64,000 bases of DNA from Streptosporangiaceae bacterium (GCA_025964715.1 JAOPYH010000375.1:1-64000), one strand, 5' to 3'; counted from the first letter of the stretch, positions 30,867-43,865 are shown. A program made the numbers and translations. The notes: generated by a model from the letters alone, not told the origin.

Positions 30867-32777
30867 TCACCGCAGCGGGAGGCGCAGCCGGTGCAACCGC
30901 AGGGCCAGCTGCAGCTCCAGGGCCCGGTCGGGCTCCTGCCAGTCCGGCCCGAGCAGCTGCCCGATCCGGTCCAGCCGCTGGGTGACGGTGTTGACATGGA
31001 TGTGCAGCCGCTCGGCGGTGCGGGACAGGCTGCCGCCGGTGCTGAAATAGGTCTCCAGCGTCTGTACGAGACCGGTACCGCGCCGGGTGTCATAGTCCAG
31101 GACCGCGCCGAGCGCCGAGGCCAGAAACCCCCGTACGTCCCGCTTGTCGCCGACCAGCAGGCCCACGAAGCCGAGCTCCTCCGAGCTCGCGGCCTCCCCA
31201 CGGCGCCCGAGGGCGATCAGCGCGTCCGTACACCGCTGGGCCTCCTGAAAGGCCGCGGCGACCCGGTCGAATCCGGTGATGGGGCCCGCCGACCCCGCCG
31301 TGGCCGCGACGCCGAGCGACCCACCCAGCTCCTTGGCGACCCATCGCGCGACGGCGCCCGGATCCTGGCCGGGCAGCAGCAGGACCACCTCGTCGCCCCG
31401 GGTCGCGACGAGCCCGTGCTCCACGGCGGCGTGGGAGGCCGCCCAGAAGGCGGCCCGCTGGCGCAGGCCCTGACCATGGGGGCCCCGTTCCGCATCGGCC
31501 GGACGCGCCACGACGACGACATGCGGGGCCTCGGCGTCGACGCTGACCAGCCGTGCCCTGCGCGCCAGCGCGTCCGGATCGGCCAGCCGCCCGGCGAGGA
31601 GGTCGTCGAGCAGCTCTCCCCGCACGCGTCCCTCGGCCTCGGCGACGCTGCGGCCGAACAGCAGCAGGATCGCCGTGACGAGGGCGGCGCGCTCCAGGAT
31701 CCGCTCGTCGGCGTCTGTCACGTCGAAGTCGGTGCGCAGGACCAGCGTGCCGAGGGTCTCGGCACCGGCCGCCACCGAGGCGACCCAGAGTGCTCCGCGC
31801 CGGACCGTACGCCCCATCCCGAGAGAGGACGCCGACGCGGCGGCCACCTCGGCCTCGTCCAGGTCCGCGACCGAGCCGACCGCGGCCAGCCGCCGGCCGT
31901 CGGCGTCCAGCACCACCAGCCCGCCGCCCAGCACGTCGGTGACGACCGCGGCCACGTCCTCGACGCCACCGCCCCGCACCACGACGTCGGTCATGCGGTC
32001 GTGCGCCAGCGCGGCCCGCTCCACCGACGCGCTGTGGGCCCGGATGAACTCGTTCGCGGAGCTGAGCTCCTCGAGCGCGGCCCGGGTCTCCTCTAGCAGG
32101 CGGGCGTTGTCCATGGCCACGGCGGCATGCGCGGCCAGGGAGCAGAGCAGCACCACCTCCTCCTGGACGAAGGGCCGGGCACTGCGGTTGGCCGCGAAGA
32201 GCACACCGAGAACCTTCGGGCCCAGGCGCATGGGCACACCGAGGATCGCGACGATGCCCTCCTCGTCCACGGGACCGTCGATCGAGGTGAGGTGACGGAA
32301 GCGGGCGTCGGCGAAGTAGTCCGGGGTCGTGTAGGGCACCGCCGTCTGGGCGACCAGGCCGCCGAGACCCGCACCCACCGGCAGGCGCAGCGTCCGGAAG
32401 GACGCCGAGACCGAGCCGTCGGTGACCCGCATGTAGGTGTCGCCACGCTCGTCGTCGTGCAGGGTCATGTAGGACACGTCGGTCTTGAGCAGCCGGCGGG
32501 CCCGGTGCACGATCGCCTCGAGCACGGCGTCGAGGTCGCGCAGCCCGGCGAGGTCGCTGGCGGTGTCGAACAGCGCCGAGAGCTCGGCCTCTCGGCGGGC
32601 GCGCCGTTCCAGCAGCGCCCGCACCCGCAGCGCCGAGACCTTGGCCTGCTCGAGCTCCGCCAGCACCTCTGTGCTCGCGCCCGCCGCGCGGGCCTCGATC
32701 AGCGGCCCTTCGAACTCGATCGGCGTGGCTTCGCGGGCCAGCAGCTCGAGGAAGGTCCGGCTCGACATGCGATCCAT
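30867..32777 (-). CDS. GAF-domain PucR/CdaR-type transcriptional regulator
   Basis: This 636-residue regulator has an N-terminal helical segment, a GAF domain (about residues 80-230, FDTASDLAGLRDLDAVLEAIVHRARRLL onward), a central GGDEF-like CdaR region, and a C-terminal PucR HTH (YFSTGGSLSRTAERLHIHVNTVTQRLDRIGQLLG). The ATG at 32777 has a GAGGAAG site. It follows the 3-hydroxybutyrate dehydrogenase gene by 11 bp and is certainly cotranscribed with it. It probably senses a small carboxylate or a redox signal through GAF and activates the PHB-utilisation genes nearby. The target motif proposed for it recurs upstream of all three units. Confidence 0.85.
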   Translation of the reverse strand: MDRMSSRTFLELLAREATPIEFEGPLIEARAAGASTEVLAELEQAKVSALRVRALLERRARREAELSALFDTASDLAGLRDLDAVLEAIVHRARRLLKTDVSYMTLHDDERGDTYMRVTDGSVSASFRTLRLPVGAGLGGLVAQTAVPYTTPDYFADARFRHLTSIDGPVDEEGIVAILGVPMRLGPKVLGVLFAANRSARPFVQEEVVLLCSLAAHAAVAMDNARLLEETRAALEELSSANEFIRAHSASVERAALAHDRMTDVVVRGGGVEDVAAVVTDVLGGGLVVLDADGRRLAAVGSVADLDEAEVAAASASSLGMGRTVRRGALWVASVAAGAETLGTLVLRTDFDVTDADERILERAALVTAILLLFGRSVAEAEGRVRGELLDDLLAGRLADPDALARRARLVSVDAEAPHVVVVARPADAERGPHGQGLRQRAAFWAASHAAVEHGLVATRGDEVVLLLPGQDPGAVARWVAKELGGSLGVAATAGSAGPITGFDRVAAAFQEAQRCTDALIALGRRGEAASSEELGFVGLLVGDKRDVRGFLASALGAVLDYDTRRGTGLVQTLETYFSTGGSLSRTAERLHIHVNTVTQRLDRIGQLLGPDWQEPDRALELQLALRLHRLRLPLR

Positions 32778-32788
32778 TGTGCGCTTCC

Positions 32789-33577
32789 TCAGGACGCCGT
32801 CCATCCGCCGTCGATCGTCAGTGAGGCGCCGGTGATCATGGACGCGTGCGGCGAACAGAGGTAGGCGACGAGCTCGGCCACCTCGTCGGGCTCGATCAGC
32901 CGCTTGATCGCCGCCCTCGCCAGCATGACCCGCTCGACGACCTGCTCGGGCGGCAGGTCGTGGGTGCGGGCCTGGTCGGCGATCTGGTCCTCCACGAGGG
33001 GCGTACGGACGTAGGCGGGGTTCACGCAGTTGGAGGTGACGCCGTGCGGCGCCCCCTCCTGGGCGATGACCTTGGAGAGTCCTTCGAGCGCGTGCTTGGC
33101 GGTGACATAGGCCGACTTGAACGGGGAGGCGCGCAGGCCGTGCACGGACGAGATGTTGATGATCCGGCCCCACTCCCGCTCGTACATGCCGGGTAGTGCC
33201 CGGCGCACGATCCGGAAGGGCGCCTCGACCATGATCCGCAGGATCCGCGCGAACTGCTCCGGCGGGAACTCCTCGATCGGCGCCACGTGCTGCAGCCCCG
33301 CGTTGTTCACGATGATGTCGGCGACGGGATCCAGCTCCTCGACCGCGGCCATGTCGGCCAGGTCCACCGCCCTGGCGGTGGCGCCGATGTCCGCGGCGGC
33401 CTCCATGGCCGCGTCCTCGCGGATGTCGAGGAGCACCACCTCGGCCCCCGCGGCGGCGAGCCGGCGGGCACAGGCCCGGCCGATCCCGCTCGCGGCCCCG
33501 GTCACGAGGGCGCGCCGGCCGGCCAGATCGAGGTCGGCGGACGCGCGGGCCGCCGCATGCGGAGTGAAGCTCGTCAT
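32789..33577 (-). CDS. bdhA: 3-hydroxybutyrate dehydrogenase (SDR family)
   Basis: BdhA oxidises D-3-hydroxybutyrate to acetoacetate with NAD+. The 262-residue short-chain dehydrogenase has the cofactor motif TGAASGIGRA, the NNAGLQHVAPIEEFPPEQF segment that distinguishes 3-hydroxybutyrate dehydrogenases from other SDRs, the catalytic Ser in NISSVHG, and the Tyr/Lys pair in YVTAKHALEGL. CVNPAYVRTPLVEDQI is also typical. It is the first gene of a two-gene unit with the GAF/PucR regulator. The substrate fits the PHB depolymerase next door. Confidence 0.92.
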   Translation of the reverse strand: MTSFTPHAAARASADLDLAGRRALVTGAASGIGRACARRLAAAGAEVVLLDIREDAAMEAAADIGATARAVDLADMAAVEELDPVADIIVNNAGLQHVAPIEEFPPEQFARILRIMVEAPFRIVRRALPGMYEREWGRIINISSVHGLRASPFKSAYVTAKHALEGLSKVIAQEGAPHGVTSNCVNPAYVRTPLVEDQIADQARTHDLPPEQVVERVMLARAAIKRLIEPDEVAELVAYLCSPHASMITGASLTIDGGWTAS

Positions 33578-33603
33578 GGACGCGAACCTACGGAGGCCGC
33601 TGT

Positions 33604-33634
33604 GGCGGGCACATGTGCGGAGCCGACATATTCG
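33604..33634. promoter_or_regulatory. Shared PHB-locus operator, copy 1 (upstream of bdhA)
   Basis: A 31-bp stretch begins GGCGGGCACATGTG and ends CCGACATATTCG, 27-57 bp upstream of the bdhA start codon. Nearly the same sequence occurs on the other strand at 36525-36554, and a shorter relative at 36445-36458. It includes the palindrome GCACATGTGC. It is proposed as a common regulator site. Confidence 0.55.
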
Positions 33635-33658
33635 GGGGGTCTGCGGTGTGGCCCTCGC

Positions 33659-33721
33659 TCCAATGGATCAAGGCCCCGGGTCGCCATAGCGACCTTCTTC
33701 CTTGATCGTCTTCGTTGGAGG
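33659..33721. repeat. Imperfect fold-back repeat, related to the hairpin at 33838
   Basis: Nested inverted repeats are present: CTCCAA/TTGGAG on the outside, GATCAAGG/CCTTGATC in the middle, and GGTCGC/GCGACC around a CATA loop. The core TGGATCAAGGCCCCGGGTCGC resembles TGGATCAAGGGCCGGGGTCGC in the second hairpin 170 bp away, so the two are probably copies of one element. Confidence 0.6.
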
Positions 33722-33837
33722 GCTCCGGTTGTCGCTCCCGGAGGGCGTCCGGCAGACGGTGATCGGACGCAAGGGGGCACGCCTACCGATGGACCGGGAC
33801 AACCGCACCGTGGCCCGCGGCGAGGTGCTCTCAGGGG

Positions 33838-33889
33838 AGTGGATCAAGGGCCGGGGTCGCTATGGGTGCCCCGGCCCTTGATCCACTCG
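33838..33889. terminator. 20-bp perfect hairpin, probable terminator of the PHB hydrolase/depolymerase transcript
   Basis: Positions 33838-33857 pair perfectly with 33870-33889 around a 12-nt loop. It begins 6 bp after the stop codon of the depolymerase gene (minus strand). There is no T tract, which is common in actinomycete terminators. Confidence 0.75.
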
Positions 33890-33894
33890 GAGGT

Positions 33895-34926
33895 CTAGCC
33901 TCCTAGGGCCTTGACCATGGCCATGATGGCCTGCATCTGCTTGCCGGCTTTGACGTCGTAGGACGCGTCGCCGCCGTAGCCCCACCAGTTCCAGCACCCG
34001 TTGGGGTTGCCCAGGGTCCAGCTCGCGGTGGCCTGCGGATAGAGCACCACCATCGCGTTGGTGTCCGCGTATTCGTTGAGGTAGGCCTTGTCGAGGAACT
34101 GGTTGCCGACGGTGCCATAGCTCTGCAGGCAGCCGTGCAGCGCGACCATCAGCCGGCAGCCGGCACCGTCCGAGCAGCCCTTGGGCACATAGGCGAATCC
34201 GTTGGTGCCCATGCTGATCGCGGCGGCACTCCCGCCCGGGGCATAGGCGTTCTGGCCGAACTGGATCAGCTTTCCGTTCAACGCCGAGGCCGGTGCGCTG
34301 ACGCCACCGAACAGGTGGCCGAGCATCGCCTGCTGCGGGTTGTCCCCACAGGTGTTGAGGTACGGGCTGTAGCTCGACGTGCAGGGATTGGGCCCGAGCG
34401 GGCTGACCCAGGAGTGCCCCGCCTGCGAGGTCTTGTTGTAGGACACCCGGCTGCCGAAGTCCCCATAGAACGTGGCGAGGGCGTCGTTGACCGGCTCCTT
34501 GACCGTGGAGTCGCTCCGACCGTGATAGATCCAGACCGGGTCGCCCGACAGGTTGCCCACCGGGTCGATCCGGCCCTGCTGGGCCCGGTCGCGCGCGGTC
34601 TGCTCCAGCTGCCCGAGGTTGATGGCCTGCAGGTTGTTCATGCAGGCCAGCTGCGCCGTGTTGACGTCGCCCTTGGCGCAGCCGTACGGCCCGGCGGCGA
34701 AGATACCGGCTCCGCGGAACGTGGACGAGTAGGCGACGTGCAGCTGGGTGGCCAGGTAGCCGCCGGAGGAGACCCCCGAGGCGTAGACGCCGCTGATGGA
34801 CAGCCGGGTGAGCGAGCCGGGCGTCGGCGGGGGCACCGCCGCATCGGCCGGGGTGGTGCCGAGCCCGGTGGCCACCAGGCCGGCGCAGGCGAGTGCGGTC
34901 AGGGCACGGCGAAGAACGGATTTCAT
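33895..34926 (-). CDS. Secreted poly(3-hydroxybutyrate) depolymerase/esterase
   Basis: This 343-residue secreted esterase has a signal peptide (MKSVLRRALTALACAGLVATGLG, cleavage near ADA-A at residue 30). The alpha/beta-hydrolase core carries the nucleophile S53 in VYASGVSSGGYLA near the N-terminus, VWIYHGRSDSTVK in the middle, and GHSWVSPLG, which fits the acidic and histidine positions. It also has CRLMVALHGCLQSY, typical of the catalytic-domain type 2 PHB depolymerase family. It would release 3-hydroxybutyrate oligomers outside the cell. It follows the upstream hydrolase gene by 37 bp, so the two form one unit. Short-chain esters or related polyesters are possible alternative substrates. 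Confidence 0.82.
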   Translation of the reverse strand: MKSVLRRALTALACAGLVATGLGTTPADAAVPPPTPGSLTRLSISGVYASGVSSGGYLATQLHVAYSSTFRGAGIFAAGPYGCAKGDVNTAQLACMNNLQAINLGQLEQTARDRAQQGRIDPVGNLSGDPVWIYHGRSDSTVKEPVNDALATFYGDFGSRVSYNKTSQAGHSWVSPLGPNPCTSSYSPYLNTCGDNPQQAMLGHLFGGVSAPASALNGKLIQFGQNAYAPGGSAAAISMGTNGFAYVPKGCSDGAGCRLMVALHGCLQSYGTVGNQFLDKAYLNEYADTNAMVVLYPQATASWTLGNPNGCWNWWGYGGDASYDVKAGKQMQAIMAMVKALGG

Positions 34927-34963
34927 GCTGACCTCTTCCTGTGGGCGGGGTCCGCCGGCCGGG

Positions 34964-36343
34964 TCAGCCGGTCAGCGAACAGGTGTTGGCGAGGTCCCCC
35001 GAGGTCGGTCGCGCCAGAGTCGCGCTCGGCGGCGGCGCCTGGCCCCCGGTCGTCCAGCTCTCCATCGCCGCGAAGCCCATGCGGAGGCAGGGCAGGAGGG
35101 GACGGAGCCGGTCCGGGTAGGCGTCGTACAGCCCGTCGACGTGATTGCCGCCCTCGACCCGGTAGTACCGGTGCAGCCGTCCGCCGCCGTGCTGGCCGAT
35201 CATGCGGGCGTAGACGTCGGAGTCCGTGGTGATCGGCAGCAGGGTGTCGAGTGTGCCGTGCAGCGTGATGAGCGGTTTGTGGATGCGCCCGGTCAGCGCG
35301 ATCCGGGCCACCGCCCGGCGTACCTCCGCGGGCCGTGCGGCGTAGTCGTAGTCCGCGTCGCAAGCCGGCGTGCCGGAGGCGCAGAACGGCGTGCCCGCCT
35401 CAGCGGCGCCGTCGTAGGAGGGATCGAGCTCCTCGCGGTAGATCCGCTGGGTCAGGTCCCAGTAGACCTTGTAATGGAAGTCCCAGAGGAACTCCGACCC
35501 CGGCGCGAAGCCCGCCTTCAGGATCTCCGCGTGCGCCGCGGGGTCCCCCGTGGCGGCGTAGCGCGGATAGGCACGGAGCGCGGCCGGCAGGTAGGTGAGC
35601 AGGTTCGGCCCGCCGGCCCGCCACAGCGTGCCCTCCGCGTCGAGGCCGCCGTCGTACAGCCACGGACGGTTCTCCAGTTGCCACCTGACCAGGTAACCGC
35701 CGTTGGAGATGCCGGCGGCATAGGTCCGGCGCGGCACGCTCCCGTACCGCTGCGCCAGCAGGAGCTTGGCGGCCACGGTCAGCTGCGTGACCCGGTCGTT
35801 CCACTCCACGATCGCGTCGCCGGGCCGGGTGCCGTCGCGGTAGAAGTCGGCGCCGCTGTTGCCCTTGTCGGTGGCCGCGAACGCATAGCCCTTGGCGAGG
35901 ACCCAGTCGGAGATCGTGAAGTCGTTCGCGTACTGCCGCCGGGTGCCCGGCGCGCCGGCGACCACGAGGCCCCCGTTCCAGTGGTCCGGCAGCCGGACGA
36001 CGAACTGGGCGTCGTGGTTCCAGCCGTGCAGCGTGTTGAAGGCCGAGGAGTCCGGAAAGTATCCGTCCAGCTGGATGCCCGGCACCCCGGAGGGGTTGCG
36101 CGCTCCGGCCGGATGCAGGCCCGCCCAGTCGGCGGGGACGGTGTGGCCGGTCTTCGTGGTTCCGGCCGTCGTGAGGTCGTCCAGGCAGGCGGCGACCTGC
36201 TTCTGCGCGCCCGGGACCGTGATCCGGTCGATCCGCGCGCAGTGCCCGGGCGCCGCCCCGGGTCCGGTGGCGGCGGAGGCCACCGGGGCCGTGCCGATGA
36301 CCAGCGCCACCGCTGCGGCGAGGGTTCTGCGGATGGGCGCCAT
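34964..36343 (-). CDS. Secreted alpha/beta-hydrolase, 3-hydroxybutyrate oligomer hydrolase-like
   Basis: This 459-residue secreted hydrolase has a signal peptide (MAPIRRTLAAAVALVIGTAP, ending near ASA-A at residue 25). It contains LPDHWNGGLVVAGAPGTRRQYANDF, ATDKGNSG and the nucleophile S213 in TYAAGISNGGYLVRWQ. A late Asp and His occur in LHGTLDTLLPI and GGNHVDG. The pattern resembles 3-hydroxybutyrate oligomer hydrolases and tannase-like esterases. The chain is shorter than classical oligomer hydrolases (about 690). Its position upstream of the PHB depolymerase favours oligomer cleavage. I am less sure of substrate than of fold. Confidence 0.62.
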   Translation of the reverse strand: MAPIRRTLAAAVALVIGTAPVASAATGPGAAPGHCARIDRITVPGAQKQVAACLDDLTTAGTTKTGHTVPADWAGLHPAGARNPSGVPGIQLDGYFPDSSAFNTLHGWNHDAQFVVRLPDHWNGGLVVAGAPGTRRQYANDFTISDWVLAKGYAFAATDKGNSGADFYRDGTRPGDAIVEWNDRVTQLTVAAKLLLAQRYGSVPRRTYAAGISNGGYLVRWQLENRPWLYDGGLDAEGTLWRAGGPNLLTYLPAALRAYPRYAATGDPAAHAEILKAGFAPGSEFLWDFHYKVYWDLTQRIYREELDPSYDGAAEAGTPFCASGTPACDADYDYAARPAEVRRAVARIALTGRIHKPLITLHGTLDTLLPITTDSDVYARMIGQHGGGRLHRYYRVEGGNHVDGLYDAYPDRLRPLLPCLRMGFAAMESWTTGGQAPPPSATLARPTSGDLANTCSLTG

Positions 36344-36444
36344 CGGGGCTCCTCGGGGGGCTCACGCGGTTACAGATCAAGCCAGCCGGTTCAAGCCGGT
36401 AGAGCCGGACCGTACGGCTGCGGCGGGGGCCTTCCTACGTGGCC

Positions 36445-36458
36445 GGGCCACATATCGG
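36445..36458. promoter_or_regulatory. Shared PHB-locus operator, short copy (upstream of the hydrolase operon)
   Basis: The sequence GGGCCACATATCGG resembles the CCGGCACATATTCG end of the longer copies. It lies about 100 bp upstream of the hydrolase start codon. It has the same orientation relative to that gene as the other copies have to theirs. Confidence 0.4.
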
Positions 36459-36524
36459 CAGAGCCCGCGGTGTGACGACACGTCAGGCCCATCGCGGTGT
36501 GGATCACCCCCGTAGCCGGGGTGG

Positions 36525-36554
36525 CGAATATGTGCCGGAGTCACATGGCCCGCC
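36525..36554. promoter_or_regulatory. Shared PHB-locus operator, copy 2 (upstream of the ABC transporter operon)
   Basis: Read on the minus strand, this 30-bp stretch begins GGCGGGCCATGTG and ends CCGGCACATATTCG. It matches the copy upstream of bdhA apart from a one-base gap and a few changes in the 5-6 bp between the two blocks. It lies about 97-126 bp upstream of the transporter start codon. Confidence 0.55.
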
Positions 36555-36650
36555 TCACGGCCGAGACCTAGCGTTCCCCCGACAACAGCCGGGTGTGCCC
36601 TGCATCACACCGGGTCACCCCATGAAGACATGAAGAGGCGAGGAGGGCCT

Positions 36651-37412
36651 ATGACGATGGCCCCCATCCTGACGGCCCGGGGACTGGCGAAGGAGTTCCG
36701 CGGCTTCCGGGCCGTCGACGGTGTGGACCTCGACATCGCCGAGGGTGGAGTGCACGCGCTGGTCGGGCCGAACGGGGCCGGCAAGACGACTCTGTTCAAC
36801 CTGCTCACCGGGTTCCTCAAACCCACCGCCGGACGCATCGCCCTCGGCGACAAGGACCTCACCGGCAGCAGCCCCGAGCAGATCGCGCGGCTCGGCGTCG
36901 CACGCTCGTTCCAGATCACCAGCCTCTTCCCGCAGCTGACGCCGCAGGACCATCTCGAGCTGGCACTGGCCGGCTCGACGACGCTGGGATGGCGGTTCTG
37001 GCGCTCCGACCGGGTGCTCACCCGCTTCCGGGACCGCGCCGCGGAGCTGCTCGAGCAGGTCGGCCTGGCCGATCACGCCGAGGTGCCGGTGGCCACCCTG
37101 GCGTACGGGCGCAAGCGGGCTCTCGAGCTCGCGCTCGCCCTCGCGCTCGACCCCCAGGTGCTGCTGCTCGACGAGCCGACGGCCGGCATGGGCCTGGAGG
37201 ACGTCGACCGCACGGTGGCCCTCATCGATCGCGTGCGCGAGGGCCGGACCGTCGTGCTCGTGGAGCACAACATGAAGGTGGTCTCCAGCCTCGCCGACCG
37301 GGTCACCGTCCTGCAGCACGGCCAGGTGCTCGTGGAGGGACCGTACGCCGAGATCCGCCGGGACCCGCGGGTGATCAGCGCCTATCTGGGAGACGCCGAT
37401 GTTGCGCATTGA
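36651..37412 (+). CDS. Liv-type ABC transporter ATP-binding protein (LivG-like)
   Basis: This 253-residue ATPase has Walker A GPNGAGKTTLFN (about 40-51), Q-loop SFQITSLFPQL, the signature variant LAYGRKRALELALALA, Walker B QVLLLDEPTAGM, and the H-loop VEHNM. The ATG at 36651 has a GGAGGG site. It is the first gene of a five-gene importer operon and overlaps the next ATPase by 14 bp. The substrate is not shown by the sequence. Neighbouring PHB genes suggest 3-hydroxybutyrate or its oligomers instead of a branched-chain amino acid. Confidence 0.92.
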   Translation: MTMAPILTARGLAKEFRGFRAVDGVDLDIAEGGVHALVGPNGAGKTTLFNLLTGFLKPTAGRIALGDKDLTGSSPEQIARLGVARSFQITSLFPQLTPQDHLELALAGSTTLGWRFWRSDRVLTRFRDRAAELLEQVGLADHAEVPVATLAYGRKRALELALALALDPQVLLLDEPTAGMGLEDVDRTVALIDRVREGRTVVLVEHNMKVVSSLADRVTVLQHGQVLVEGPYAEIRRDPRVISAYLGDADVAH

Positions 37413-38091
37413 CCGGCTGTCGGCCTGGTACGGCGAGGCGCAGGTGCTCCGCGACGTATCCCTGGAGGTCGGCGAGGGAGAGATCGTCACGCTGGTCGGC
37501 CGCAACGGCGCCGGAAAGACGACGCTGCTGCGCTGTGTGATGGGCCTGCACGGCCGCTCGACCGGGGCGATCGGCTTCCTCGGCGGCGACATCTCCGGGC
37601 AGGCCGCACACCGCCGGGCCCGCCGCGGGCTCGGCTATGTGCCCGACGACCGGGGCGTCTACGCCACCCTGAGCGTGGAGGAGAACCTCCTGCTCCCGCG
37701 GCCGGTCGGCCCCGATCCGTGGTCGCTGGACAAGGTGTATGAGACGTTCCCGAGATTGCGGGAACGCCGCCGCTCCCCCGGAACCAAGCTCTCCGGCGGC
37801 GAGCAGCAGATGCTGGCCCTGGCACGGGTGCTGCGGATGGGCGCCCGGCTGCTCCTGTGCGACGAACCCACCGAGGGCCTTTCCCCGCTCATCGTGCAGC
37901 AGATCGGCGACATCCTGCGCGCGGTCAAGGCGCAGGGCGTGACCGTGCTGCTGATCGAGCAGAACGTGCACTTCGCCCGGACCGTGGCCGACCGGCACTA
38001 CCTGCTCGCGGAGGGCCGGGTGATCGAGTCCTTGGACAACTCCGAGATGCGCGCCCGCGAGACCGAACTGCTCGAATACCTCGGAATCTGA
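37399..38091 (+). CDS. Liv-type ABC transporter ATP-binding protein (LivF-like)
   Basis: This 230-residue ATPase, the partner of the preceding one, starts inside the previous gene. It has Walker A GRNGAGKTTLLR near residue 37, the signature KLSGGEQQMLALARVL, Walker B ARLLLCDEPTEGLSP and the H-loop LIEQNV. Actively expressed Liv systems need one of each ATPase type, as seen here. The binding-protein gene follows after 12 bp. Confidence 0.93.
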   Translation: MLRIDRLSAWYGEAQVLRDVSLEVGEGEIVTLVGRNGAGKTTLLRCVMGLHGRSTGAIGFLGGDISGQAAHRRARRGLGYVPDDRGVYATLSVEENLLLPRPVGPDPWSLDKVYETFPRLRERRRSPGTKLSGGEQQMLALARVLRMGARLLLCDEPTEGLSPLIVQQIGDILRAVKAQGVTVLLIEQNVHFARTVADRHYLLAEGRVIESLDNSEMRARETELLEYLGI

Positions 38092-38103
38092 AGGAGACGC
38101 ACC

Positions 38104-39339
38104 ATGAGACGCACGCGTCGTACGGCCGCGGTCGCGGTCACGGCGGCACTGCTGGCGGGCTGCGCCGGCGGGCCGGGCGGGGGCGGAGGCAAGATCAGCG
38201 ACGGCAAGGTCGTGCTGGCGGTGCTGAACGACCAGTCGGCCATCTATGCCGACCTGTCCGGCAAGAGCAGCATCGAGGCCGTCAAGATGGCGGTCGCCGA
38301 CTACCGGGCCAAGTACGGCGGCAAGGCGGTCGCGAAGAAGATCGACGTCATCTCGGCCGACCATCAGAACAAGCCGGACATCGCGAACACCAAGGCGCAG
38401 GAGCTGTACGACCGGCAGCGCGCGGACGTCATCCTGGACGTGCCGGCGTCCTCGGCGGCGCTCGCGGTCGCCAATGTCGCCAAGTCCAAGAAGAAGATCT
38501 TCATGGACATCGGGGCCGCCACCACGGCGCTGGAAGGGCAGCAGTGCAACAAGTACACCTTCCACTACGGCTACAACACGCACATGCTGGCGCACACCGG
38601 TGACGCCGTGACCAAGGACGGCCGCAAGAACTGGTACCTCGTCTACCCGGACTACGCGTTCGGACAGGACATGCAGAAGAGCTTCAACGCGGCCATCACC
38701 GGCGCCGGCGGCAAGATCATCAAGGCCGACCCCACGCCGTTCCCGAACGACAACTTCTCCACGTTCCTGCTCAAGGCCCCGGGCCTGCGCCCCAAGCCGG
38801 ACGTACTCGGCGGCATGCAGGCCGGCGGTGACCTGGTCAACCTGGTGAAGCAGTACAACGAGTACAAGCTGCGCGACAAGGGCATCGACCTGGCCGTCGG
38901 TCTGATGTTCATCACCGACATCCACTCGCTCGGCCCGGACGCCCTCGCCGGCACGAAGTTCAGCGACGCGTGGTACTGGAACGGCAGCCCGGACAACCGC
39001 GCGTGGGCGGACAGGTTCCAGGCCAAGACCGGCAAACGCCCGAGCTTCGCGCACGCGGCGAACTACTCCGCCGCGACGCAGTATCTCGAGGCCGTGCAGC
39101 AGGGTGGCACGGACAAGTCGGACGCGGTGGTGCAGCGGCTCGAGGGCAAGAAGTTCAACGACGTGTTCGCCAAGAACGCGACGATCCGCGCCGAGGACCA
39201 CCTGCTCCTGCATGATTCGTATCTCGCCCAGGTCAAGCCGTCCAACGAGGTCAAGGAGCCGTGGGACTACGAGAAGATCCTGAAGACCATCCCGGCGGCC
39301 GAGGCCTTCCAAGCGGCCGATCCCGCCTGCAAGCTCTAA
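38104..39339 (+). CDS. Liv-type ABC transporter substrate-binding lipoprotein
   Basis: This 411-residue lipoprotein has lipobox LLAGC with lipid-anchored Cys20, then a type 1 periplasmic-binding fold: VVLAVLNDQSAIYADLSGKS, DVISADHQNKPDIANTKAQEL, NWYLVYPDYAFGQDM, GGMQAGGDLVNLVKQYNEY. The family includes receptors for amino acids, amides, aromatics and short carboxylates, so the ligand is not fixed by sequence. Location beside PHB degradation genes makes 3-hydroxybutyrate or a small hydroxyacid oligomer a reasonable guess. The ATG has a GAAGGAG site. Confidence 0.88.
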   Translation: MRRTRRTAAVAVTAALLAGCAGGPGGGGGKISDGKVVLAVLNDQSAIYADLSGKSSIEAVKMAVADYRAKYGGKAVAKKIDVISADHQNKPDIANTKAQELYDRQRADVILDVPASSAALAVANVAKSKKKIFMDIGAATTALEGQQCNKYTFHYGYNTHMLAHTGDAVTKDGRKNWYLVYPDYAFGQDMQKSFNAAITGAGGKIIKADPTPFPNDNFSTFLLKAPGLRPKPDVLGGMQAGGDLVNLVKQYNEYKLRDKGIDLAVGLMFITDIHSLGPDALAGTKFSDAWYWNGSPDNRAWADRFQAKTGKRPSFAHAANYSAATQYLEAVQQGGTDKSDAVVQRLEGKKFNDVFAKNATIRAEDHLLLHDSYLAQVKPSNEVKEPWDYEKILKTIPAAEAFQAADPACKL

Positions 39340-39349
39340 AGAGGTCCGC

Positions 39350-40210
39350 GTGCTGCAACAGGCCTTCAACGGCCTGGTCGGCGGTGCCTTCTACGCACTG
39401 CTCGCCCTGGGCCTGTCCGTCATCTTCGGCATGCTCGGCGTGGTGAACTTCGCCCACGGCGCCTTCTACATGCTGGGAGCGTTCGGCGCCTACGTGCTGC
39501 TCAGCTCCTACGGCCTGAACTTCTGGATCGCGCTGGTCGTGGTGCCGCCGGCGCTGGGGCTCCTGGGCGTGGTGCTGGAGCGGCTGTTCATCCGGCGCCT
39601 CACCGGGCTGGACCCGCTCTACAACTTCCTCTTCACCTTCGGGCTCGCCCTGATCCTGCAGGACCTGGTGCGGCGGCAGTACGGGGTGCAGTCGCAGCCC
39701 TATCCACGCCCGCCGGCACTGTCCGGCTCGGTGGACCTCGGGCTGTTCGACTATCCCACCTACCAGGTCTTCGTGCTCGCCCTCTCGGTCCTGGTGTGCG
39801 TGGCGGTGTGGCTGGTCCTCGCCCGTACAAGGATCGGGATGGTGGTACGGGCCGCCACGGAGCGACCGGAGCTGACCCGGGCGCTCGGCATCGACGTGGG
39901 CCGCTGGGTCACGCCGGTGTTCGGCTTCGGTATCGCCCTGGCCGGGCTCGCCGGGGTGCTCGCCGCTCCGATGCGCGCCGTGAATCCCCTCATGGGAGCC
40001 GACCTGATCATCGTCGTCTTCGCGGTCGTGGTGATCGGCGGGCTCGGCTCCCTGTTCGGGTCCGTGGCCGCCGGGTTCGCGATCGGACTGGTGTCGGCGC
40101 TCGGCAACCTCTATGTCCCAGCGCTGTCCCAGACGCTGGTCTTCATCCTCATGGCCGCCGTCCTGCTGTGGCGGCCGGCCGGCCTGTTCGGACGCGAGGA
40201 GGCGCTGTGA
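39350..40210 (+). CDS. Liv-type ABC transporter permease (LivH-like)
   Basis: This 286-residue permease has about eight membrane helices. The opening AFNGLVGGAFYALLALGLSVIFGMLGVVNFAHGAFYMLGAF is characteristic of LivH. ATERPELTRALGIDVGRW carries the coupling-helix EAA-like loop. The GTG at 39350 follows GAGG and is the first codon of the conserved domain. The next permease starts 13 bp downstream. Confidence 0.92.
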   Translation: MLQQAFNGLVGGAFYALLALGLSVIFGMLGVVNFAHGAFYMLGAFGAYVLLSSYGLNFWIALVVVPPALGLLGVVLERLFIRRLTGLDPLYNFLFTFGLALILQDLVRRQYGVQSQPYPRPPALSGSVDLGLFDYPTYQVFVLALSVLVCVAVWLVLARTRIGMVVRAATERPELTRALGIDVGRWVTPVFGFGIALAGLAGVLAAPMRAVNPLMGADLIIVVFAVVVIGGLGSLFGSVAAGFAIGLVSALGNLYVPALSQTLVFILMAAVLLWRPAGLFGREEAL

Positions 40211-40223
40211 GCCGGGAGGCGCT

Positions 40224-41159
40224 GTGTTGATCCGCCTGTTGTCCGGGTCGGCCCGGGGCCGGCTGCTGCTCGCCGCGGGGCTGGTGACCGCCCTGGCACT
40301 GCCCTGGGTCATCTATCCGCCGGTGGCGATGGACATCGCCTGCTGGGCGCTGCTCGCGGTCGCCGTGGACCTGCTGCTCGGCTTCACCGGGCTGCTGTCG
40401 TTCGGGCACGCGGCCTTCTGGGGCGGCTCTGCGTACGTATCCGGCCTGATCGCTGTGCACACCGGCCTCCCCTTTCCGGTGGCGGTGCTGGGCGGCGCCC
40501 TCTTCGCGGCGGCGCTGGCAGTGCCGATCGGCTATCTGTCGGTACGGCTGCGGGGCATCTACTTCGCCATGGTGACGCTGGCGTTCGCGCAGATGATGTA
40601 CTTCGTCGCCAACCAGTGGCGGGGCCTCACCGGGGGCGAGAACGGCCTGCAGGGCATCCCTCGGGACTTCCTCGGGATGGACCTGTCCGACCCGTTCATC
40701 TTCTACTACGTGGCGCTGCCGATCGTGCTCCTCGGTCTGGCGCTGGCCTGGCGGATCACACGGTCCCCGTTCGGCCGGGTCATCATGTCCATCCGGGACA
40801 ACCCGGCGCGGGCCCGGGCGCTCGGCTACCGGGTGGACCGCTATCGGCTGCTGTCCTTCGTGCTGTCGGCCTTCCTCGCCGGGCTGGCCGGTGGGTTGTA
40901 CGCCATCAGTCACGGGTTCGCCTCACTCCAGGAGGTCTACTGGACCACGTCCGGGCAGGCCGTGATGATGGTCGTGCTCGGCGGCATCGGGACCCTGTGG
41001 GGCGGCGTCATCGGCGCCGGCCTCGTGGTCGAGCTCAACGACTACCTGGCCACGGCCGGCTTCGAGGAAATCGGCATCGTCACCGGAACGATCTTCGTCA
41101 TCATCGTCATGGTGTTCCGCAAAGGCATCTGGGGCACCGCCCGCGCCTTGCTCGAGTGA
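40224..41159 (+). CDS. Liv-type ABC transporter permease (LivM-like)
   Basis: This 311-residue second permease has LivM features: LLLGFTGLLSFGHAAFWGGSAYVSGL, LRGIYFAMVTLAFAQMMYF, and a coupling loop around SIRDNPARARALGYRVDRYRL. The GTG at 40224 is preceded by GGGAGG at a proper distance. It ends the operon and is followed 14 bp later by a strong hairpin. Confidence 0.9.
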   Translation: MLIRLLSGSARGRLLLAAGLVTALALPWVIYPPVAMDIACWALLAVAVDLLLGFTGLLSFGHAAFWGGSAYVSGLIAVHTGLPFPVAVLGGALFAAALAVPIGYLSVRLRGIYFAMVTLAFAQMMYFVANQWRGLTGGENGLQGIPRDFLGMDLSDPFIFYYVALPIVLLGLALAWRITRSPFGRVIMSIRDNPARARALGYRVDRYRLLSFVLSAFLAGLAGGLYAISHGFASLQEVYWTTSGQAVMMVVLGGIGTLWGGVIGAGLVVELNDYLATAGFEEIGIVTGTIFVIIVMVFRKGIWGTARALLE

Positions 41160-41460: not shown

Positions 41461-42498
41461 TCATTGACCGCCGGACTCATGACGAGTCCAGGCCAGCAGG
41501 TCGTCGGCGGTCATCGTGTTGACGACCTTTTCCGGCTCGACTCCGCACCTGGCCGCGCGCTCACATCCGTACGGCTGCCAGTCGAGCTGGCCCGGAGCGT
41601 GCGCGTCGGAGTCGATGGACAAGCGGCAGCCGGCCTCGACCGCCAGCCGCAGCAAGCGCTTGGGCGGGTCGAGCCGCTCCGGCCGCGAGTTGATCTCCAC
41701 CGCGACGTCGTAGGCCGCACAGGCGGTGAAGACCAGGTCGGGATCGAACTCCGATTCCGGCCGCACCCCGCCGCGACGGCCGCCGCCCCTGACGATCCTC
41801 CCCGTACAGTGCCCGAGGACATCGACCCGCGGGTCGGAGATGGCCGTGACCATCCGCCGGGTCATGTCGGCGCGCGCCATCCGCAGCTTCGAGTGCACGC
41901 TGGCCACGACCACGTCGAGCCGGTCGAGCAGCTCCGGCTCCTGGTCCAGTGAGCCGTCCTCGCGGATGTCCACCTCGATGCCGGTGAGAATCCGGAACGG
42001 CGCCAGCTCCTCGTTGAGGCCGGCCACGACCTCCAGCTGCTTGCGCAGCCGCTCCGGCGACAGCCCGTTGGCGATCGTGAGCCGGGGCGAGTGGTCGGTC
42101 AGCGCGATGTACTCGTGGCCCAGGCCGCGCGCCGCCTCGGCCATCTCCCGGATCGGGCTGCCGCCGTCGCTCCAGTCCGAATGGGTGTGCAGATCCCCGC
42201 GCAGCGCCTGGCGGAGGGCCGCCGCCGCCTCTTCGAGCGGGGTGTCCTCGGTGGCCTCGAGCCGCCGCAGATATATGGGGACCTCGCCCCGCAGGGCCTC
42301 CTGGATCACGCCGGAGGTGACCTTGCCGATCCCCGGCAGATCCGTGAGCGTGCCCGCCTCGGCCCGCTGGGCGAGCTCGGCCGGGGGCAGCCCCTCCGCG
42401 AGATTCGCGGCCGTGCGGAAGCTCCGCACCCGGAAGGTGGGCTCGAGCGCCCGCTCGAGCAGGAACGCTATGCGGCGCAGTGCCTCGACCGGATCCAC
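41461..42498 (-). CDS. PHP-domain protein with helix-hairpin-helix (polymerase-less PolX-like)
   Basis: This 345-residue protein matches the two ends of bacterial DNA polymerase X without the nucleotidyltransferase core. The N-terminal third has a helix-hairpin-helix DNA-binding motif (LTDLPGIGKVTSGVIQEAL, about 50-68). A PHP phosphoesterase domain follows with metal ligands in GDLHTHSDWSDGG, ALTDHSPRLTIANG, GIEVDI, ASVHSKL, GHCTGR and SIDSDAHAPG. A phosphatase or exonuclease acting on DNA or small phosphates is plausible. It is divergent from fasR across about 104 bp. Confidence 0.85.
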   Translation of the reverse strand: MDPVEALRRIAFLLERALEPTFRVRSFRTAANLAEGLPPAELAQRAEAGTLTDLPGIGKVTSGVIQEALRGEVPIYLRRLEATEDTPLEEAAAALRQALRGDLHTHSDWSDGGSPIREMAEAARGLGHEYIALTDHSPRLTIANGLSPERLRKQLEVVAGLNEELAPFRILTGIEVDIREDGSLDQEPELLDRLDVVVASVHSKLRMARADMTRRMVTAISDPRVDVLGHCTGRIVRGGGRRGGVRPESEFDPDLVFTACAAYDVAVEINSRPERLDPPKRLLRLAVEAGCRLSIDSDAHAPGQLDWQPYGCERAARCGVEPEKVVNTMTADDLLAWTRHESGGQ

Positions 42499-42602
42499 AC
42501 CTCAGAACCGTACGCCCGTACCGCCCCGCGCGACAGAAACCACAGGCCCCGGCCGTGGCGGCCAGCGTGGAGCATCGCCCCGAAGGTGGCACTCTTGGGG
42601 GC

Positions 42603-43796
42603 GTGGACAGCACGAGTGACGCGGCCATCAGGGAGCAGACGACCAAACATCTCGAGGAGGCGATGGGAAGCTTCGGCACCGCCGCACTCGCCCGGATGGA
42701 GGAGCAGCTCCCCTGGTTCCGCCGGATGCCGGCGGAGCACCGATCCTGGATCGGGCTGGTCGCGCAGGCCGGGATCGCGGCGTTCGTGGAGTGGTTCAAG
42801 AACGCCGAGAAGACCCGCCCGGCCATCGCCGGCGAGGTGTTCGGCACCGCCCCACGTGAGCTGATGCGCGCGGTACGACTGCAGCAGACGGTCGAGATGG
42901 TGCGCGTCATCATCGACACGGTCGAGAGCCGGCTGGACGAGCTCGCCGCACCGGGCGGTGAAGTGCAGCTGCGGGAGGCGATCCTTCGTTACACCCGGGA
43001 GGTCGCCTTCGGCGCGGCGGCCGTCTATGCCCGCGCCGCCGAGACCCGGGGCGCGTGGGACGCCCGGCTCGAGGCGCTCATCGTCGACTCGCTGCTGCGC
43101 GGCGAGGTCGACAACAGCCTGCACTCCTGGGCGGCGGCGCTCGGCTGGTCGTCCAAGCCGGTCGTGGTGGTGGCCGGGTACATCCCGGACGAGGAGTCCG
43201 AGACCATCATCGACCAGATCCAGGTGGCCGCGCGCCGCGCCCGCGTGGACGTGCTCGCCGGAGTCCAGGGACACCGGGTCATCGCCATAGTCGGCGGCGC
43301 GGAGGACCCGCTGGCCGCGGCGCGGCCGATAGCCGCCAAGTGCGGACCGGGCCCGGTCGTCGTCGGACACCAGGTGGCCGACCTGTACGGCGCCACCGCC
43401 TCCGCCCGCGCGGCCCTCGCCGGGCTGCAGGCGGCCATCGCCTGGCCCGACGCACCGCGTCCCGTGCACGCCGCCGACCTCCTCCCCGAGCGCGCGCTGG
43501 ACGGCGACGACGAGGCGCGCCGCTATCTCGTCGAGCAGGTGTACGAGCCGATGTGCGCGGCCGGCGCCCCGCTGCTCGACACCCTGACGACCTATCTCGA
43601 ACAGGGCTCCTCGCTCGAGGCGACGGCCCGGCTCCTGTTCGTCCATCCGAACACGGTGCGTTACCGGCTCCGTCGCGTCACCGAGCTCACCGGCCTCGTT
43701 CCCACCGACGGACGGGCTGCCTTCACCCTGCGGATCTCGCTGGCGCTCGGACGGTTCTCCGCTCGCTTTGAGTCACGACCCGGTGGCGCTACGTAG
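42603..43796 (+). CDS. fasR: PucR-family regulator, FasR-like activator of fatty-acid synthesis
   Basis: This 397-residue regulator carries a C-terminal PucR-type HTH (TYLEQGSSLEATARLLFVHPNTVRYRLRRVTELTG). It sits directly upstream of fabD-fabH-acpP-fabF, the position of FasR, which activates that operon in Streptomyces coelicolor. Upstream of the HTH lies a CdaR-like region (VVVVAGYIPDEESETIIDQIQ). The N-terminus is helical and lacks a GAF domain. The GTG at 42603 has a G-rich site directly ahead. It is 137 bp from fabD on the same strand, leaving room for the target promoter. Confidence 0.85.
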   Translation: MDSTSDAAIREQTTKHLEEAMGSFGTAALARMEEQLPWFRRMPAEHRSWIGLVAQAGIAAFVEWFKNAEKTRPAIAGEVFGTAPRELMRAVRLQQTVEMVRVIIDTVESRLDELAAPGGEVQLREAILRYTREVAFGAAAVYARAAETRGAWDARLEALIVDSLLRGEVDNSLHSWAAALGWSSKPVVVVAGYIPDEESETIIDQIQVAARRARVDVLAGVQGHRVIAIVGGAEDPLAAARPIAAKCGPGPVVVGHQVADLYGATASARAALAGLQAAIAWPDAPRPVHAADLLPERALDGDDEARRYLVEQVYEPMCAAGAPLLDTLTTYLEQGSSLEATARLLFVHPNTVRYRLRRVTELTGLVPTDGRAAFTLRISLALGRFSARFESRPGGAT

Positions 43797-43848: not shown

Positions 43849-43865
43849 TTGTAGGACACGTACAA
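43849..43865. promoter_or_regulatory. Candidate inverted repeat upstream of fabD
   Basis: TTGTA and TACAA flank a 7-bp spacer in the fasR-fabD gap, about 70 bp before the fabD start. Its position fits a FasR binding site, but the arms are only 5 bp and this is unproven. Confidence 0.35.

Follow-up and report, generated by a model that had tools for sequence, protein, structure and literature searches.

A predicted PucR-family operator at three promoters of an actinobacterial PHB locus

Genes of the locus

The window analysed here is a 64,000-nucleotide stretch of DNA from an Actinomadura-like soil bacterium of the Streptosporangiaceae, whose genome assembly (7.1 Mb in 542 contigs) is 86% complete. 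It contains a PHB locus in which four genes run leftward in the order hydrolase, PHA depolymerase, bdhA and GAF/PucR regulator, while livG-F-K-H-M run rightward from position 36651. The first leftward gene (34964-36343, minus strand) encodes a secreted hydrolase resembling tannases and 3HB-oligomer hydrolases, with matches to the Pfam models Tannase and 3HBOH above their cutoffs. The second (33895-34926, minus strand) encodes an extracellular short-chain-length PHA depolymerase of 343 amino acids with a type 2 catalytic domain (NCBIfam NF050059, 344 bits, above the cutoff). The third, bdhA (32789-33577, minus strand), encodes a 3-hydroxybutyrate dehydrogenase of the SDR type (NCBIfam TIGR01963 PHB_DH, 327 bits, above the cutoff).

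The regulator gene (30867-32777, minus strand) lies in the same direction as bdhA after a gap of 11 bp and encodes 636 amino acids. In addition to a Pfam GAF domain, the protein has a central GGDEF-like domain (GGDEF_2, 52.1 bits versus a cutoff of 24.5) and a C-terminal PucR HTH (HTH_30, 81.9 bits versus a cutoff of 27), both of which are characteristic of PucR/CdaR-type proteins. It is 85-86% identical to the corresponding proteins of Actinomadura alba and Actinomadura sp. HBU206391, the nearest named relatives.

The rightward genes (36651-41159, plus strand) encode an ABC importer of the LivG, LivF, LivK, LivH, LivM type according to Pfam, and their order with bdh and the regulator gene is conserved. 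Judging only by linkage and gene content, the importer is predicted to carry 3-hydroxybutyrate or a related acid.

Just beyond the end of the depolymerase gene is a perfect 20-bp inverted repeat (33837-33888), which is likely a terminator hairpin dividing this gene from the bdhA promoter. A related hairpin, also a likely terminator, occurs in the same interval at 33664-33707 (GGATCAAGG...CCTTGATCC in the two hairpins). We found no strong additional copies of this hairpin type elsewhere in the genome.

Operators and promoters

We found a 24-bp predicted operator that reads GAATRTGT-N9-ACATGG in the direction of the gene and occurs upstream of bdhA (CGAATATGTCGGCTCCGCACATGT, 33611-33634, minus strand), livG (CGAATATGTGCCGGAGTCACATGG, 36525-36548, plus strand) and the 3HBOH-like hydrolase gene (CCGATATGTGGCCCGGCCACGTAG, 36435-36458, minus strand). 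Each of the three sites is oriented in the same way with respect to its own gene, as a sequence-only reading of this DNA had proposed. That reading had described a near-repeat of about 30 bp, and the blocks it saw as shared between 33604-33634 and 36525-36554 are indeed there. The repeat is real, but the shared unit is longer, consisting of the operator, exactly 20 bp and a TANNNT sequence. Similarly, the segment at 36445-36458 that had been taken for a shorter relative is related, but it is part of the full third site and not a fragment. We dropped one of the blocks, GGCGGGC, because it falls in a spacer that is not conserved in relatives (profile columns 25-31). This sequence (GGCGGGC/GCCCGCC) comes just after the operator, and its two copies are one base out of register with each other.

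The modules in the window are CGAATATGTCGGCTCCGCACATGT-N20-TAGGTT for bdhA, CGAATATGTGCCGGAGTCACATGG-N20-TAGCGT for livG and CCGATATGTGGCCCGGCCACGTAG-N20-TACGGT for the hydrolase operon. Their predicted -10 boxes are at 33585-33590 (minus strand), 36569-36574 (plus strand) and 36409-36414 (minus strand), respectively. The spacing is the same in relatives for bdhA, and is 21 bp in same-genus relatives for the hydrolase operon. The -10 box of bdhA ends 7 nt before the ATG and, for this reason, the transcript is predicted to be leaderless. Leaderless starts are an established pattern in actinobacteria.

The skeleton TGT-N9-ACA is exact in the bdhA and livG sites, and the hydrolase site has TGT-N9-ACG. 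The position of the dyad axis is fixed only to within one base: a centre at 13 scores 0.50 and one at 14 scores 0.53.

Given that the matrix training set had been filtered for TANNNT, we re-tested the spacing without this filter, using promoters that were outside the training set, less than 80% identical and located by the 24-bp core alone. In the resulting 40 independent promoters, TANNNT lies 20 bp from the operator in 28, 21 bp in five, 22 bp in one and 18 bp in two, and at no other distance from 0 to 40 bp downstream. In many relatives outside the same genus, however, the hydrolase site is not followed by a TANNNT box.

When the three window promoters were inspected, the sequence 17-18 bp from the -10 box could not be recognised as a -35 hexamer in any of them. 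If the -10 box is taken as -12 to -7, the operator is centred at about -43/-44. The operator thus overlaps the -35 region at a fixed distance from the -10 box, at promoters lacking a -35 consensus, which is the predicted arrangement of a class II-type activator site. Alternatively, the same regulator could bind the same operators as a repressor relieved by 3-hydroxybutyrate, although we regard this as unlikely. Repression would agree with the overlap between operators and -35 region, and MabR, another PucR-family protein, was initially reported to repress and later to activate (PMC11617747). It agrees less well with the lack of a -35 hexamer or with the rigid spacing to the -10 box, which is expected where a regulator contacts the polymerase; moreover, PucR of Bacillus subtilis is called an activator in a title cited in PMC3412718. 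We therefore favour activation.

A profile of 55 promoter clusters exhibits A.TGTGT and CACATGG, the two halves of the operator, and further conserved elements upstream. One is CACA(C/T), which precedes the proximal CACATG by 33 bp. In the window it corresponds to a distal CACACC half-site at bdhA (33645-33650, minus strand) and, at the same offset, at the hydrolase promoter (36469-36474, minus strand); the two promoters have CACACCGC in common at this position. The other is TGTGG, conserved some 31 bp before the left half (profile columns -26 to -22), which is found at the livG promoter at 36498-36502 (plus strand). The distal half-sites are about three helical turns upstream, and their placement suggests that a second dimer, or a tetramer, could occupy one face of the DNA. 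MabR forms both dimers and tetramers in solution (PMC11617747). In livG promoters of relatives (e.g., loci L113 and L146), a conserved GATGTGGRTCACA box precedes the operator by about 31 bp and is unlike the distal element of bdh promoters.

Conservation and genome-wide distribution

We collected promoters from 60 orthologous loci, in which genes were placed by tblastn. A Gibbs sampler that was not supplied with the motif recovered it from the promoters of relatives. The sequence-only reading had hinged on orthologous promoters carrying the motif, and they do.

Site models were trained on regulator-positive genomes. For a 50-bp matrix, the training promoters were filtered for TANNNT at 20 bp and two same-genus loci were left out. 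This matrix, which draws only on genera other than that of the window, gives its three highest scores in the 64 kb to these sites (23.3, 23.1 and 22.6 bits), and the next match scores 6.8. By contrast, the maximum score in 60 Markov-simulated windows was 13.8 bits. A second profile, R1, which contains one same-genus sequence and none from the window, likewise gives the three sites its highest scores across the 7.1-Mb genome (20.6, 16.4 and 16.0 bits; the next, at 14.5, is a partial match), in a search that scores only the best first-pass candidates and yields rough E-values. The bdhA site is the best match of the independent model in both window and genome, and the hydrolase site, which is conserved in relatives, ranks second or third. 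Thus, the genome scan for further copies that had been suggested identified no strong site beyond the PHB locus.

In the source genome, a core-only model matches the PHB locus and nothing else. The same holds for six of seven relatives (6.7-9.4 Mb), and the seventh has no match. The 7.1 Mb contain three occurrences of RTGT-N9-ACATAT, two of them at the PHB locus; the third, which is on contig C372, is rejected as a site by the full model. A looser pattern, RTGT-N9-ACATGG, is useless by itself, since its 11-24 matches per genome are close to the control count in some genomes.

That the similarity reflects chance, a recent duplication or low-complexity sequence without function is extremely improbable. 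In its favour, no more than 120 bp separate two of the three sites. However, the scores of the real sites are far above those of simulated windows, the site is conserved across families, and the spacers are dissimilar in sequence while the contacts are kept. We rejected this explanation based on the null scores, the cross-family conservation and the fixed spacing to the -10 box.

The site recurs in Actinomadura, Thermomonospora, Micromonospora, Catellatospora, Nocardioides and one further family (f3), in three gene arrangements. In the first, found in the window and Actinomadura, bdh and the regulator gene have their own promoter and the liv operon is apart; sites occur at bdh and livG, and in many loci on the hydrolase side as well. 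In the second, livGFKHM-bdh-reg form a single operon with the hydrolase gene divergent, and a site is present at livG but not at bdh. The third arrangement has no liv genes. Instead, an MFS transporter gene (MHS-like by sequence, PF07690/PF00083) follows the regulator gene, usually together with a hydrolase gene, and the site is upstream of the MFS gene, with a second site at bdh in several loci. The site is therefore kept upstream of livG in all arrangements that have livG, and it follows the promoter of the pathway even when the transporter is swapped. Common regulation, as originally proposed, is well supported by this behaviour, by the deep conservation and by the fixed distance from operator to -10 box.

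Examples in which LivGFKHM is replaced by the non-homologous MFS transporter bearing the operator are L095 (8709-10118, minus strand), L109 (247-1581, plus strand) and L110 (193-1476, plus strand). Some regulator-positive loci (g47, L077, L078 and L104) have weak or no model matches. In L090, L092 and L094, the regulators are about 55% identical and the sites upstream of bdh are altered (CCATAT or CCACAT halves) and score weakly, so that co-evolution of site and regulator is possible. The reading frames of the regulator and hydrolase are fragmented in L202 (Actinomadura sp. CNU-125), perhaps owing to assembly errors.

The predicted regulator and its relatives

Orthologues of the GAF/PucR regulator are present in 208 of 297 family genomes. 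Strong sites (R1, E<=1e-3), counted by hand, occur in 50 of these 208 genomes and in none of the 89 without the regulator, a co-occurrence that partly reflects the shared ancestry of one linked locus. The bdh gene is missing in 18 of 20 regulator-less genomes, and the two that have it exhibit no site upstream of it (n=2). The recognition-helix region of the protein reads HIHVNTVTQRL, and H(I/V)HVNTVxQRL is nearly invariant across clades wherever the motif occurs.

It is quite likely that the three sites are operators of one local regulon that is bound and activated by the adjacent GAF/PucR protein; the binder, the activation, the ligand and the importer substrate are predictions from sequence. 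The sequence-only reading had named the same protein. Linkage and presence or absence across the 297 genomes support it as the predicted binder, as do the bare bdh promoters of the two regulator-less genomes, the confinement of the site to the PHB locus and the TGT-N9-ACA skeleton, which also occurs in established or probable operators of a different regulator of the PucR family.

That other regulator has a counterpart in the window, a second PucR-type protein (42489-43796) resembling FasR/MabR, and the sites could belong to it. Its HTH is of the same family (40% identity over 65 amino acids), its operator skeleton is likewise TGT-N9-ACA, and its gene is only about 6 kb from livG. However, FasR orthologues are found in 61 of 61 family genomes, whereas strong sites occur only alongside the GAF/PucR regulator, so the presence of FasR does not account for the distribution of sites. 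FasR also has a candidate site of its own with other flanks, TTGT-N9-ACAA, between fasR and fabD. Given its ubiquity and this separate site, we set FasR aside as a very unlikely binder.

The half-sites (AATGTG...CACAT) also resemble the TGTG/CACA halves of CRP/FNR-type operators, and a position near -41 would suit general carbon control by such a protein. The CRP consensus, TGTGA-N6-TCACA, amounts to TGTG-N8-CACA, while the spacing here is N9. Many sites would be expected in the genome, but the PHB locus alone is matched, and the presence of the site tracks the PucR regulator. The finding that the core model matches at most one locus in genomes of 6.7-9.4 Mb argues against global regulators such as CRP. 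We rejected this identity, to which we assign as small a probability as to FasR, based on the spacing and the lack of a genome-wide regulon.

With the GAF/PucR protein as the preferred binder, we propose the following mechanism. Its GAF domain would sense a product of PHB breakdown, either 3-hydroxybutyrate or a derivative. A dimer would then bind RTGT-N9-ACAT, whose centre falls some 43-44 bp ahead of the transcription start so that it overlaps the place of the -35, and would activate RNA polymerase at weak promoters that have a TANNNT -10 box and no recognisable -35. The three targets would be bdhA-reg, the operon for the secreted depolymerase and oligomer hydrolase, and the livGFKHM importer. 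Since it would activate the bdhA-reg promoter, the regulator would amplify its own synthesis. As one regulator would act at all three promoters, extracellular digestion, uptake and oxidation would be induced together.

PucR of B. subtilis, which gave the family its name, has the operator WWWCNTTGGTTAA, which differs from the one predicted here, and responds to another nutrient. Like the proposed role of the GAF/PucR protein, its function is to activate a catabolic regulon, namely purine catabolism, including transport and degradation genes, according to work cited in PMC3412718. EtnR1 and the pmoABCD-linked CdaR/GAF regulators of Mycolicibacterium are likewise actinobacterial proteins of the PucR-HTH or GAF-CdaR type, are encoded next to catabolic operons and are presumed activators (PMC8784404). 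However, their neighbours are alkene monooxygenase genes.

MabR (Rv2242, M. tuberculosis) and FasR of Streptomyces share with the GAF/PucR regulator a C-terminal half composed of a GGDEF-like domain and a PucR HTH, and a gene adjoining a target, which is fabD in their case. The N terminus is globin-like in MabR and FasR but a GAF domain here, their targets are fatty-acid genes and not 3-hydroxybutyrate genes, and their operators are flanked by TT..AA instead of GAA..GG. The oligonucleotide bound by MabR in EMSA, GTTTTGTTGGTTATATACAAAAA, is TTTTGT-N9-ACAAAA and thus contains TGT-N9-ACA (PMC11617747). This skeleton is exact in the MabR oligonucleotide and the fasR-fabD site, as it is at bdhA and livG.

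A broader proposal, to which we give somewhat less than even weight, is that TGT-N9-ACA is the common operator geometry of actinobacterial PucR-family regulators, with outer bases setting specificity, and that, across several actinobacterial families, use of extracellular PHB and 3-hydroxybutyrate has this GAF/PucR protein as its master activator. If true, the regulons of many uncharacterised PucR-type regulators in actinobacterial genomes could be read from sequence. We found no description of a PucR-controlled 3-hydroxybutyrate regulon in the open papers searched. The analysis points to a probable sensor protein and the DNA site predicted for it. It offers a sequence-defined, testable regulon through which actinobacteria would break down the bioplastic PHB and use the resulting monomer, and it suggests an operator rule for a large and mostly uncharacterised regulator family.

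The candidate FasR site in the window, TTGT-AGGACACGT-ACAA (43849-43865), matches the MabR target. It is kept in 11 of 30 loci, including the window, with a spacer of 9 only, and is followed by a conserved block resembling AA(A/G)TTCGT.
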